This document shows positions 49,846 to 53,547 of a stretch of 64,000 nucleotides of DNA, piece by piece. Position 1 is the stretch's first letter. The number at the start of each line of letters is the position of its first letter. The stretch is from positions 1-64,000 of the forward strand of contig JAPOYV010000097.1 of the NCBI GenBank assembly GCA_026706385.1. Direction: 5' to 3'. Below the pieces are notes generated by a model. It saw nothing but the letters and a program-made list of their open reading frames with translations, was not told the origin of the DNA and ran no database searches. Both the position numbers and the translations under genes were made by a program. The stretch is from Gammaproteobacteria bacterium. GTDB taxonomy: Bacteria > Pseudomonadota > Gammaproteobacteria > Pseudomonadales > Azotimanducaceae.

Positions 49846-49928
49846 ACCGGAGGTGTCGGAGGACACGCGGGTTCTGCCAGGTTCGAGGCGGCAACGCCGA
49901 GCGCCTGGCATGACCCGGGACTTGCACG

Positions 49929-49965
49929 CCCGGAGCCGGTTTGACCGGCTCCGGGCTTTCTTTTT
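49929..49965 (+). terminator. Strong intrinsic-terminator-like hairpin
   Basis: A 12-bp perfect GC-rich stem (49929-49940 with 49944-49955), a TTG loop and the tract CTTTCTTTTT follow the TonB receptor stop. The shape is that of a Rho-independent terminator. It lies inside the first codons of the interrupted gene, and the T-tract is the target duplicated by the insertion. Confidence 0.7.
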
Positions 49966-49990
49966 GGGAATTGTGTAGCAAAAGAAGCAA
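49966..49990 (+). repeat. Left terminal inverted repeat (25 bp)
   Basis: Perfect inverted copy of 52796-52820; bases beyond position 25 differ between the ends, which defines the repeat length. Confidence 0.93.
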
Positions 49991-49996
49991 AAACCG

Positions 49997-50025
49997 TAGA
50001 CTCTTGATCGGGCGCGACATATAAT
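49997..50025 (+). promoter_or_regulatory. Putative transposase promoter
   Basis: A perfect -10 TATAAT (50020-50025) lies 17 bp after TAGACT (49997-50002), a four-of-six -35 match, just inside the left inverted repeat and 26 bp before the transposase start. Confidence 0.5.
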
Positions 50026-50051
50026 GCGAAGCAAGAGCTACGGAGACGGAC

Positions 50052-51077
50052 ATGGCAGTTATCGAGTACGACGCGAACGGCAACCCACACAACGAGAGTG
50101 GTAAGCGCATCGCGGAGACGATCAGCATCCCGCAACTCTACCGGATGTTCCCCGACGACGCAGCTTGCCGGAAGTGGCTTGAGCAAGTCCTGTGGAACGG
50201 CAAGCCGGTGTGCCCGCGCTGCCACGGCAGCGACAAGGTGAGCAAGGGACCGGCATCCAAGCCCGAAGGCTACTACTGGTGCAAGCCCTGCCGCCGGTTC
50301 TTCACGGTCACGGTCGGCACCTGTATGCACTCGACCAAAGCCGATCTACAGCATTGGGTGTATGCGTTCTACACCGTCCTCACGGCCCGCAAGGGCGTCT
50401 CCGCACTCCAAATTTCCAAGGAGCTTGGCGTCCAGTACCGCACCGCATGGCACATGCTGCACCGGGTACGCGAAGCTTGCGGGCGAGACGACTTCACGGT
50501 TGGCAACGTGGTCGAAGTAGACGAGACCTACATCGGAGGCAAGGAAACGAACAAGCACGCGGACAAGAAGCTGAACGCCGGGCGCGGCACGGTTGGCAAG
50601 GAAGCGGTCGTGGGCGTCAAGGAACGCGGCGGCAAGGTCAAGGCGCAGCCGGTGGAACGCACCGACAAGCGCACGCTGCGCGAGTTCATCGAAGGCAACG
50701 TGGATCAAGGCGCGACCGTCTACACCGACGACGCCGCCGCCTACGGGGCGTTGCCGAGCGTCATCAACCAGTACCAACATGAGACGGTCGCTCACGGCAA
50801 GGGCGAGTACGTCAGGGGCGAAGTCCACACCAACTCGATTGAAGCCGTGTGGGCCGTCCTCAAGCGTTCGATTCACGGCACATGGCACCACGTCAGCCCG
50901 AAGCATCTTGGCCGCTACGTCAACGAGGCGAGCTTCCGGCTGAACGAGGGCAACTGCGAAGTGGACACCATCGACCGCATGGAAGCGTTGGTGCGGCAAA
51001 CGCCGGGGGCCATGCTCCGATACCGGGATCTGATTGCCGACACTGGCGAGTCCGCCATCCCGGTTGCCGTTCGATGA
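50052..51077 (+). CDS. IS1595-family (ISXO2-like) transposase
   Basis: A 341-residue transposase. An N-terminal zinc ribbon (Cys54, Cys57, Cys77, Cys80) is followed by a helix-turn-helix-like region (ALQISKELGVQYRTAWHMLHRVR) and the catalytic domain: Asp157 in VVEVDETYIGG, Asp226/227 in YTDDAAAY, then HTNSIEAVWAVLKRS, where Asn261 or Glu264 provides the third acidic or polar position and Lys271 follows. The domain is full length with no frameshift, so it may be active. GGAG at 50042-50045 is a good ribosome-binding site. Confidence 0.93.
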   Translation: MAVIEYDANGNPHNESGKRIAETISIPQLYRMFPDDAACRKWLEQVLWNGKPVCPRCHGSDKVSKGPASKPEGYYWCKPCRRFFTVTVGTCMHSTKADLQHWVYAFYTVLTARKGVSALQISKELGVQYRTAWHMLHRVREACGRDDFTVGNVVEVDETYIGGKETNKHADKKLNAGRGTVGKEAVVGVKERGGKVKAQPVERTDKRTLREFIEGNVDQGATVYTDDAAAYGALPSVINQYQHETVAHGKGEYVRGEVHTNSIEAVWAVLKRSIHGTWHHVSPKHLGRYVNEASFRLNEGNCEVDTIDRMEALVRQTPGAMLRYRDLIADTGESAIPVAVR

Positions 51078-51102
51078 GGCGGGCGGCGGCATCCCCCGGC
51101 TT

Positions 51103-51336
51103 CTAATCCGGCAACCGCCAACCGTTGCCCTGCCGCTCAACCCGCCCTTCGGCTTGCAAAAGCTTGAGCACGTTCACGACAACCTTGCGGTACGACTCAT
51201 GCGTTGCCTTCCTGCCGAACAGGGCGACTCGCACATAGCTTGAGTTGTGCGGCGTCTTGCCGAGTGCCTGAATCGTCGCCTCCTTCAGCGTTGCCAATCC
51301 GGCAGTCCCGTAGTGGGCGGCCTTTTCGCTTTTCAC
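51103..51336 (-). CDS. Passenger gene: small winged-helix-like hypothetical protein
   Basis: A 77-residue basic protein with a helical body and GRVERQGNGWRLPD at the end, which resembles the wing of a winged-helix DNA-binding domain. The start is GTG 51336, preceded by a very strong AGGAGGAGGA box, so translation is likely. It is convergent with the transposase gene. It may regulate the element; this is a guess from size and shape. Confidence 0.55.
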   Translation of the reverse strand: MKSEKAAHYGTAGLATLKEATIQALGKTPHNSSYVRVALFGRKATHESYRKVVVNVLKLLQAEGRVERQGNGWRLPD

Positions 51337-51510
51337 TTGCTCCTCCTCCTGAGGCCAGTTTTCGGGGGGGCAACCGTATCACCATCGCAAGAGTTGATCG
51401 AGCCTGCCGACTTGGTCAGATTCGCCAATCCTTGGTGGCCAAAATCGCTACCATTTCCCAACTTCCCGAGTGGATTCATCTACTTGTTGACTGTCCATCC
51501 GCGCTGTGCC

Positions 51511-51852
51511 ATGAAGGGTCAGCGGTACGCGAAATGGACCCGAGCGATGGCCGAACCAGAACAGACGCCGACCGACGACGATGGCGATCACTACGCCACT
51601 CGACGTGACCTTAGCGACCTAGAGAAGCGCATTGGCAAGCGCATGGACAACTTGCGCGCCGACATCAACCGCGACATCCAGCACGCGCTGGATAGCTCGT
51701 CGGAGCGGACGTTGCGCACTGCCGCCGTGCGCATGGACGCGATGGGCGAACGACTGACCAAGCGCATGGATGCGATGGGCGAAACTCTGGCGAGAATAGC
51801 CGACAAGCTCGGCGTGGAGAACGGCACTGTCGAGCCGGACGAAGTGGAGTGA
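51511..51852 (+). CDS. Passenger gene: coiled-coil hypothetical protein
   Basis: A protein of about 113 residues. The N-terminal part is acidic (TPTDDDGDHYATRRDLSDLEKRIG) and the rest is a coiled coil with a duplicated RMDAMGE segment (AVRMDAMGERLTKRMDAMGETLARIADKLG). The start is uncertain: ATG 51511 or ATG 51547, neither with a strong ribosome-binding site. Its stop overlaps the next gene's GTG start by 4 bp. No function assigned. Confidence 0.5.
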   Translation: MKGQRYAKWTRAMAEPEQTPTDDDGDHYATRRDLSDLEKRIGKRMDNLRADINRDIQHALDSSSERTLRTAAVRMDAMGERLTKRMDAMGETLARIADKLGVENGTVEPDEVE

Positions 51853-52490
51853 AAATCAAGGCAGACTCGGAGTTGACTGTGACGACTGAGAGCAAGCAAC
51901 AACGCCGTCGACGGTTGGCTTCAACAGGCGTCGCCGTCCTAATGCTGTGGGGGAGTCTCGACGCTGCGGCGTGCATCAAGCCGAAGGCAATTGCGGCCGA
52001 CCGCGATAGCTGGTGGTGCCTCGCTCACTTCGACCGGGCGTTTCCCGACCGCGAGCGGGTTCGCGTGCTGCGCTCGAAGCCCGACCATCCCCTTCTGGTG
52101 GACTGGGGAACCCAGGAACTGACCGCGTGGTACCGCGGCAGTGGTCGCGCTGGCCTGCGTGATTCGCTAACCGTGAAAACCGAACTGGATGTGACCGAGA
52201 GCCGGATGGCGTTGGACCATCGTCCCCGCTACCGGATGTATATATCCGCACGCTGGTATCGCGGCTGGGACGTGACGGACATGCAGGTGGTCACCGTCGC
52301 CGGACAGTACGGCGAAAGGATTCTGGGTGCATCGACCGAGTACGAGATGCAATTAACGCGTCGGCATCTACCGCGCATCGTGGAAGAGGGTAAGCAGCTG
52401 GTATCGCGCTGCGCGCGGGGGCACGGCAGGAGCGGGGGCAGCGTGCAGTTCAATGTCGACACCTTGGAGATATATCCGGGTTGTCGATAA
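51849..52490 (+). CDS. Passenger gene: exported hypothetical protein
   Basis: A 213-residue protein with a basic region and hydrophobic stretch (RRRRLASTGVAVLMLWGSLDAAAC) typical of a signal peptide, and a mature part rich in Trp, Tyr and Arg. No known family is recognised. The GTG start at 51849 overlaps the upstream stop, so the two passenger genes are coupled. Base composition is less GC-rich than the flanking chromosome by eye. Confidence 0.5.
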   Translation: MKIKADSELTVTTESKQQRRRRLASTGVAVLMLWGSLDAAACIKPKAIAADRDSWWCLAHFDRAFPDRERVRVLRSKPDHPLLVDWGTQELTAWYRGSGRAGLRDSLTVKTELDVTESRMALDHRPRYRMYISARWYRGWDVTDMQVVTVAGQYGERILGASTEYEMQLTRRHLPRIVEEGKQLVSRCARGHGRSGGSVQFNVDTLEIYPGCR

Positions 52491-52522
52491 GCCGACAGCA
52501 TGTCCAACGGGAGTTGTGAGTG

Positions 52523-52708
52523 ATGGCTAGACGCCGCAAGCCAATCGAGCTAGACGAGACGGTAGAGCGCGAGCCGCTGACGATGGATCAGTTCGCCGGC
52601 TTCGTGCGCGAACTGCTACAGGCTGGCCCGCCGCGTGACGTGAAAAGCGAGAACCGGGAGCCGACGAAGGCTGAGCGAGAGAAGCGCTTCAAGTTCCGAT
52701 GGAACTAG
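52523..52708 (+). CDS. Passenger gene: small charged hypothetical protein
   Basis: A 61-residue highly charged protein (MARRRKPIELDETVEREPLT at the start, KAEREKRFKFRWN at the end). GGGAG at 52509-52513 is well placed for ATG 52523. No family is recognised. It ends just before the right end of the element. Confidence 0.5.
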   Translation: MARRRKPIELDETVEREPLTMDQFAGFVRELLQAGPPRDVKSENREPTKAEREKRFKFRWN

Positions 52709-52795
52709 GATGACGCCGCGCCGTCTCGTTGGCCTAGTGTCGCCCACCAACTGGCACTGGCCGCCCCGGCGAGGCGGTGCGGCGACCAATGCCGC

Positions 52796-52820
52796 TTGCT
52801 TCTTTTGCTACACAATTCCC
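52796..52820 (-). repeat. Right terminal inverted repeat (25 bp)
   Basis: Perfect inverted copy of 49966-49990. It is read through in an open frame (encoding CFFCYTIP) that continues into the 3' part of the interrupted gene. Confidence 0.93.
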
Positions 52821-53547
52821 TTCTTTTTTGGGTCCTGCGTTGTTCTTGCCAGCCTTGTAGCCGCTGCGGACGAAGGTGCAGCGAATCCCGAAAGCTGCGA
52901 GAACTTGCCAGAAGCCCAGCGCCCGCTGTGCTTGATGGTCCAAGCTTGCGCAACGCTGGCGGACGTTGCGCAGCGGCAGGAGTGCTACAACGCCGCCGCG
53001 GAGCGCTATGCCGAGGCCCAGCCTCGGGATCGGGACCAGGCTGTTGTCCCGGAAGATGCCCCGCCTGCCATTGCGGAGACCCGCGAGGTGCCCGGTGAGC
53101 GCGAGGTCGTGACGTCTGGCCCGTCACCGCGGGCCACCCGTGCGAGCACGGAAGCGTCAGGCGGCGGCGAGAGGATCGGTACCCTCACCCGAGTAAGGAG
53201 GTTGTTTGCCGGTCCCTCGGCTGCGCGAGGTCCCGAGATCCCGCGCCGGTTCACCGCGGAGGTCACCGCCCACCGCAAGCTCGTTCGCGACCGACAATTG
53301 CTGGTCCTGGACGACAAGCTGCTTTTCGAAGGCGACAACGCCTCATCCAGCGCGATTGGGTTGGGCGATGTGGTGAAGGTGGTGAAGGCATCGAGCTTCC
53401 GCGGCCGCAAGTACCAGATCACCGGCCCGACGAGGCGCAGCTTTGAGGCCCTGCGAATCCGCTGCGAACGCACGGACCTCGGCACCGACAATCGCCGCAA
53501 GTGCAACGGCATGATGGGCGGCGAAGGGCAGTAGCGAACCGAACTGC

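Follow-up and report, generated by a model that had tools for sequence, protein, structure and literature searches.

Insertion sequences (IS) are usually regarded as one-gene elements, and modular exchange of content between IS ends is known from another IS family, in IS231-MIC231. Members of the IS1595 family have one transposase gene, with an N-terminal zinc ribbon in all groups but IS1016 (PMC8101967). Bare IS1595 elements of Xanthomonas and Ralstonia are ~1000 bp long with one frame (PMC11092175), and transporter IS (tIS) are IS1595 elements that carry passenger genes unrelated to transposition inside their ends (PMC3129680). The latter trace to Siguier et al. 2009, as cited in PMC8496243, PMC3129680 and PMC11891212, and one of them, ISNha5, carries a transcription regulator (PMC11891212). 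Restriction-modification (RM) systems have likewise been linked to IS (Takahashi et al. 2011, PMC3031569; Oliveira et al. 2014, PMC4176335). Here we examine an IS1595-like element of 2855 bp at positions 49966-52820 of a 64,000-nucleotide window (positions 1 to 64,000 of contig JAPOYV010000097.1, assembly GCA_026706385.1) from a gammaproteobacterium of the family Azotimanducaceae. We consider it probable that the element is a single-copy IS1595 tIS in which a two-gene backbone, consisting of the transposase and a small protein near the right end, encloses an exchangeable cargo slot.

With the IS1595 tIS this element shares a zinc-ribbon and DDE transposase, GG ends, an 8-bp target-site duplication (TSD), and passenger genes inside the repeats, and with bare IS1595 elements it shares the transposase, the ends, and 8-bp A+T-rich duplications, although it is far from their single-frame size. 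Its cargo set is new relative to the tIS, and the excerpts of PMC8496243, PMC3129680 and PMC11891212 make no mention of a conserved small end gene or an exchangeable slot. Many sister elements resemble IS-linked RM systems in holding methyltransferase or restriction genes on an IS, but they hold them inside one IS, unlike the genes joined to or flanked by IS copies in the excerpt of Takahashi et al. 2011, and the element studied here has no recognised RM gene at all. It had been put forward as a possible new mobile unit, yet IS1595 elements with passenger genes have been known since Siguier et al. 2009. The tIS is thus a known kind; the second backbone gene and the exchangeable slot may be new, and nothing on either was recognised in the literature searched, to which the founding 2009 tIS description did not belong.

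The boundaries of the element are clear. Its 25-bp terminal inverted repeats (49966-49990, plus strand; 52796-52820, minus strand) are complementary at 25 of 25 positions and are by far the longest perfect pair within a 3-kb stretch, where the runner-up is a 13-nt host hairpin. They are bordered on both sides by the exact 8-bp TSD TTCTTTTT (49958-49965 and 52821-52828). The first backbone gene (50052-51077, plus strand) encodes a 341-aa transposase matching DDE_Tnp_IS1595 (PF12762, E 3.3e-39) and Zn_ribbon_IS1595 (PF12760, E 2.4e-08) in Pfam and transpos_IS1595 (NF033547, E 4.2e-56) in NCBIfam; it aligns full-length with five relatives, and its profile had no match among solved structures. No other frame of the unit matched a transposase family in Pfam or NCBIfam, and the DDE domain, N-terminal zinc ribbon, 8-bp duplication, and single transposase gene are those of the IS1595 family. 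Three frames lie between the transposase and the small gene, as in a tIS, and from their lack of a family match we infer that they are unrelated to transposition. Beyond the transposase stop the unit extends for 1743 bp, a length that includes the small-protein gene. The original prediction of an enlarged IS1595-like element of 2855 bp with perfect 25-bp repeats, an 8-bp duplication, an intact transposase, and about 1.7 kb of cargo is borne out by these measurements.

To place the element among its relatives we used a transposase search at E 1e-60, which matched 31 of 206 genomes of the family. A first set held 71 loci, 34 of them with both ends, from which one (L034) was dropped as spurious. 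The second held the best 80 of at least 468 genome-contig loci plus the best 80 of 159 IMG/VR loci, 160 in all; both ends were found in 61, and seven were dropped (five duplicates, two implausible). Together these sets gave 87 elements, and the end finder gave a match at 0/83 shuffled loci and 2/164 flank anchors. The 87 elements have a median length of 2726 bp, and 78 have at least 800 bp beyond the transposase against seven with <300 bp, so that relatives ending directly after the transposase, which would speak against a cargo-bearing unit, are few. The share with cargo may be overstated because draft assemblies may miss bare copies that are highly repeated. According to record annotation, hosts of these closed elements range from Gammaproteobacteria to Chloroflexota, Bacteroidetes, and Gemmatimonadota.

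DNA methyltransferases are prominent in the slot. We scanned 150 of 174 listed cargo frames, 24 having been dropped as overlapping, and among the 25 commonest of 40 Pfam families found N6_N4_Mtase 29 times, HNH 11, MethyltransfD12 6, N6_Mtase 5, Methylase_S 4, C-5 DNA methylase 2, and HaeIII endonuclease, Fic, and Clp protease once each. Of 327 rows of PADLOC matches of the cargo, the 25 considered are for the most part methyltransferases of types II and III. With a profile for a single methyltransferase kind, 21 of the 87 elements and one control locus were detected, a lower bound because the D12, type I, and C5 kinds of the Pfam tally lie mostly outside it; methyltransferase motifs occurred in 20/87 elements and 3/168 control flanks. 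Signal-like N-termini were noted in the cargo of the studied element, L035, L041, L039, L134, L109, and L126, seven hand-picked cases without a control, some read from an internal Met. The exported-type frame of L126 (7048-7995) also bears a HEMSH motif, which we take to be zinc-protease-like; its best Pfam match has E 0.026.

The proposed second backbone gene (52520-52708, plus strand; start at 52520 or 52523) encodes a small basic protein of 61-62 aa for which nothing was found in Pfam, NCBIfam, or PHROGs. Matches to RecA fusions among solved structures were judged a repeat artefact. Small proteins of three types were recognised in 41 of the 87 elements (A 29, B 9, C 3), that of the studied element being type B. 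In a flank control of 11,437 frames (744,516 bases), the universal, B, and C models gave no match at <E 0.05 and the A model gave one, at E 0.015. Type B, in most cases encoded by the final gene, stands beside unrelated cargo: L031 has a methyltransferase-HNH gene, L139 and L147 have type I genes, L137 and L158 have methyltransferases, L140 has a protein that matches nothing in Pfam, and the studied element, L035, and L134 have exported-type proteins. Position also recurs, with 24 of 30 plus-strand small genes ending <100 bp from the right end, and in L137, L139, L147, and L158 there is a 4-nt overlap between the small gene and the stop of the cargo gene before it. The dN/dS of type B in L139/L147 was 0.104/0.728. 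An element of 1327 bp (L348; repeats 15/18, duplication 8/8) consists of type B and transposase sequence only, the latter lying in more than one frame.

Whole-genome searches place these proteins largely with transposases. The B profile matched at 16 places across 14 of the 206 family genomes and, beyond the studied element's own genome, seven in 5 of 369 class genomes; three of these 23 places are rows of the profile itself. Transposase sequence, whole or broken, lay in the fetched stretch of 16 of the 23 (10/16 in the family, 6/7 in the class). The A profile found 20 places in 12/206 genomes, nine of them rows of that profile, with 17 within 2.5 kb of a transposase from the E 1e-60 search and three near other transposase sequence. 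In several cases the type A frame lies on the opposite strand to the transposase gene and overlaps its 3' end.

A backbone is supported by a tree of the 87 transposases. Among the 41 carriers, small-protein type required 2 changes, the minimum possible, compared with a mean of 11.0 and a minimum of 8 when type was shuffled 200 times. Methyltransferase presence in the same 41 required 12 changes, where shuffling gave a mean of 13.7 and was as low in 46/200. Sibling pairs display the same pattern directly. L104 and L109 match at 89% over positions 1-1078 and at 92% over their last 146 bp; between these blocks nothing aligns, one element carrying methyltransferase genes and its sibling a signal-bearing frame, and their duplications differ. 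L098 and L102 match at 78% over positions 1-1000 and at 83% over the final 171 bp, again with a middle that does not align. Conversely, the methyltransferase segments of L137 and of L093/L097 are 77% alike, whereas their transposases are only 36-38% alike. In two sibling pairs and the tree of 41, therefore, the transposase block and the small-gene/right-end block stay together and the middle changes. Because type follows the tree, methyltransferase cargo does not, and sibling middles differ, we favor a two-gene backbone with a swappable slot. The small charged protein, originally counted as one of four passenger genes, thus looks like backbone, since it is common to elements with differing cargo and its type tracks the transposase.

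The slot of the studied element itself holds three predicted genes. A 77-aa frame (51103-51336, minus strand), convergent with the transposase gene, has a codon-position GC of 0.62/0.44/0.76, compared with 0.62/0.44/0.82 for the transposase, a strong ribosome site AGGAGGAG, and sub-threshold Pfam matches to winged-helix proteins only; one match (E 0.88) was found among solved structures. The possible DNA-binding protein of the original prediction thus appears winged-helix-like, but its gene is this minus-strand frame. A 101-aa coiled-coil protein follows (51547-51852, plus strand), with only weak family matches of the kind typical for coiled coils; it was compared with the fetched loci and protein families and not searched genome-wide. 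Its stop is overlapped by the GTG start of a 213-aa putative exported protein (51849-52490, plus strand) with an N-terminal basic and hydrophobic stretch by a simple rule. By codon-position GC the coiled-coil start is most likely at 51547 and not at 51247, up to which the frame is open with a weaker coding signal. Codon-position GC supports the 77-aa frame, the coiled-coil frame from 51547, the exported frame, and the small gene. The exported protein had no family match in searches including Pfam and NCBIfam and no convincing relative in genome contigs (a pattern-based search), plasmids, the 206 family genomes, 293 genomes of the order, or IMG/VR; four partial matches in the family genomes (E 0.001-0.0075) were judged to be chance. 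The cargo therefore remains unrecognised, as first described, and having no Pfam or NCBIfam match it falls outside IS-borne RM. The likeliest guess is that it provides a small regulator together with a secreted or envelope factor.

We hypothesize that binding of the ends by the DDE transposase leads to movement of the whole unit into A+T-rich 8-bp targets, that the role of the small protein is to aid or regulate transposition and not to serve the host, and that cargo would be swapped through recombination between the shared end blocks. In the present element the slot might be occupied by a coiled-coil and exported-protein operon with a minus-strand winged-helix regulator, perhaps kept because it serves host or element in some way. 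More broadly, and more tentatively, these elements could well represent a large undescribed IS1595 group of many phyla, a miniature cargo platform in which a tiny basic right-end protein shares the transposase's line of descent and has a role in transposition, and a cassette slot exchanges RM, exported, and other genes. If the two-block backbone is true, a common IS family would be a small vehicle that collects and trades RM and other genes, which would help explain the wide scatter of RM genes, and transposition would have a new, directly testable component in the small end protein.

Several observations weigh against the two-gene backbone. No small protein was detected in 46 of the 87 elements, many of them with cargo. 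The three types were defined from these same elements, the A and B profiles do not align, and the alignment of B with C is weak once their shared row is removed (probability 25%, E 0.00075). In the studied element 112 bp separate the end of type B from the right end, a larger gap than in most, and seven of the 23 type B places have no transposase in the fetched stretch; three of these (L315, L316, L317) lie by an element-like right end, and none was seen for L318, L319, L320, or L345. The middle is also shared in part between L093 and L097, as are two short segments between L097 and L099 (four pairs were compared), so content is not always fully replaced. The cargo genes themselves are predicted from codon use and frame length alone. 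Over all 87 elements, moreover, methyltransferase presence required 15 changes against a shuffled mean of 19.1, with 2/200 as low, and methyltransferase carriers (by the one profile) made up 18 of 41 elements with a small protein and 3 of 46 without. Because methyltransferases cluster on this larger tree and concentrate with the small protein, cargo is not fully independent; the main alternative is a link of the small gene to the methyltransferases. The small gene would then be cargo, a controller- or antitoxin-like regulator or partner of RM genes, as its place directly 3' of methyltransferase or hsdS genes in the four elements with the 4-nt overlap might suggest. We regard this as quite improbable, given that the studied element, L035, and L134 (type B) and L041 and L109 (type A) have no recognised gene of this sort, that L348 has the small protein without cargo, and that within the 41 carriers small-protein type and methyltransferase do not move together on the tree.

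An ordinary tIS, with the small protein as one more common passenger and nothing beyond what Siguier et al. 2009 described, would fit the known IS1595 members with passenger genes (PMC8496243, PMC3129680, PMC11891212) and the many elements in which the small protein was not detected. It is an unlikely explanation for a protein whose type follows the transposase tree where the cargo does not, which occurs beside unrelated cargo and, in L348, beside none, and whose end position and 4-nt coupling recur. The three middle frames could also be decaying or random open frames in G+C-rich DNA rather than functional cargo. The 77-aa and exported proteins do lack relatives in the 206 family genomes, the latter also in the 293 order genomes, and a structure predicted for the exported protein from one sequence was poor (pLDDT 31.8) and was discarded. 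Set against this are a codon-position GC in the 77-, 101-, and 213-aa frames that resembles the transposase and host genes, the strong ribosome site before the 77-aa gene, the start-to-stop overlap of the other two, and the frames with signal-like N-termini in the same slot of L035, L134, L041, L039, and L109 (from the hand-picked set), all of which make random frames a poor account. A separate proposal, compatible with the other readings, is that the group targets intrinsic terminators as a safe haven. The studied insertion, in a T-tract after a hairpin of dG -30 kcal/mol, agrees with it, as does the recovery of a hairpin with a T-run at 6/82 sites and 4/163 control stretches at a cut-off of -15 kcal/mol. 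At -8 kcal/mol the counts were 12/82 and 16/163, so that 70 of 82 sites miss even the loosest cut-off, and duplications are broadly A+T-rich, as they are in the IS1595 member ISApl4, many of whose insertions lie within genes (PMC12561309). A general terminator preference is thus only hinted at, and targeting of terminators as such seems doubtful.

The single-copy state of the element bears on its mobility. In its own draft genome (5.1 Mb, 134 contigs) the unit is present once, with diverged IS1595 transposases at other places and no second copy of the cargo set. No further copy of the whole element was found among 146 relatives and plasmids, and the exact 25-bp end sequence had no match in IMG/VR. 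Because other copies were not found in these searches, the cargo set is known from a single copy, and the suggestion of a transposon that spreads its four genes gained no second copy at another site, metagenomes lying outside the search. The same genome does contain a second complete element (L031, 7887-10591) of 2705 bp with TSD CTTTTTTC and also a T-run target; its cargo is the methyltransferase-HNH gene, and its small protein is type B, as in the studied element.

The insertion target is a T-tract belonging to a strong terminator that follows a TonB-receptor gene. The terminator-like hairpin with its T-tract (49928-49956, plus strand; dG -30.3 kcal/mol, z -7.0) includes a 13-bp perfect hairpin directly 5' of the left duplication and 3' of the receptor gene. 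An uninserted allele was found in a same-genus genome (G007, locus L324), with the same receptor end, a like hairpin and T-tract, and no insertion; its relative of the downstream gene has 58% identity, and it is the sole site read among relatives of that gene. This equivalent site indicates that the insertion is real and lies in a terminator-like T-tract, and the element thus offers a clean insertion plus an uninserted allele in a sister genome. Across the 82 elements with an exact duplication, TSDs are 80% A+T compared with 50% in flanks, and an A/T run of at least 5 occurs in 20/82 targets compared with 311/8200 control windows, an A+T preference that is already known from ISApl4 (PMC12561309).

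Minor observations concern the small protein in other contexts. L316 (6649-6995) is a 347-bp remnant of repeat, type B, and repeat, with no transposase and with flanks that do not match each other. Three near-identical decayed IS1595 copies bearing type B (L342, L343, L344) occur in one complete genome, G669, where right ends were looked for and not found. In L101 (2494-3168) the type A motif has no gene of its own and instead stands at the C-terminal end of the final cargo protein, and L162 is similar. L186 was not retained as a case of transposase and small gene only, since it has a methyltransferase-like frame, and the support for grouping types B and C as one family, at first inflated by a shared row, shrank upon removal of that row.

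Within the studied element, a possible transposase promoter, TAGACT-17-TATAAT, lies at 49997-50025 (plus strand) and is weak, with one found and 0.6 expected by chance. The native start of the downstream host gene is uncertain, the ATG at 49911 here being absent from L324. An ATG just 3' of the small-gene stop opens a 274-aa frame (52710-53534) that runs through the right repeat into this gene; the element may therefore supply the downstream host gene with a new start.

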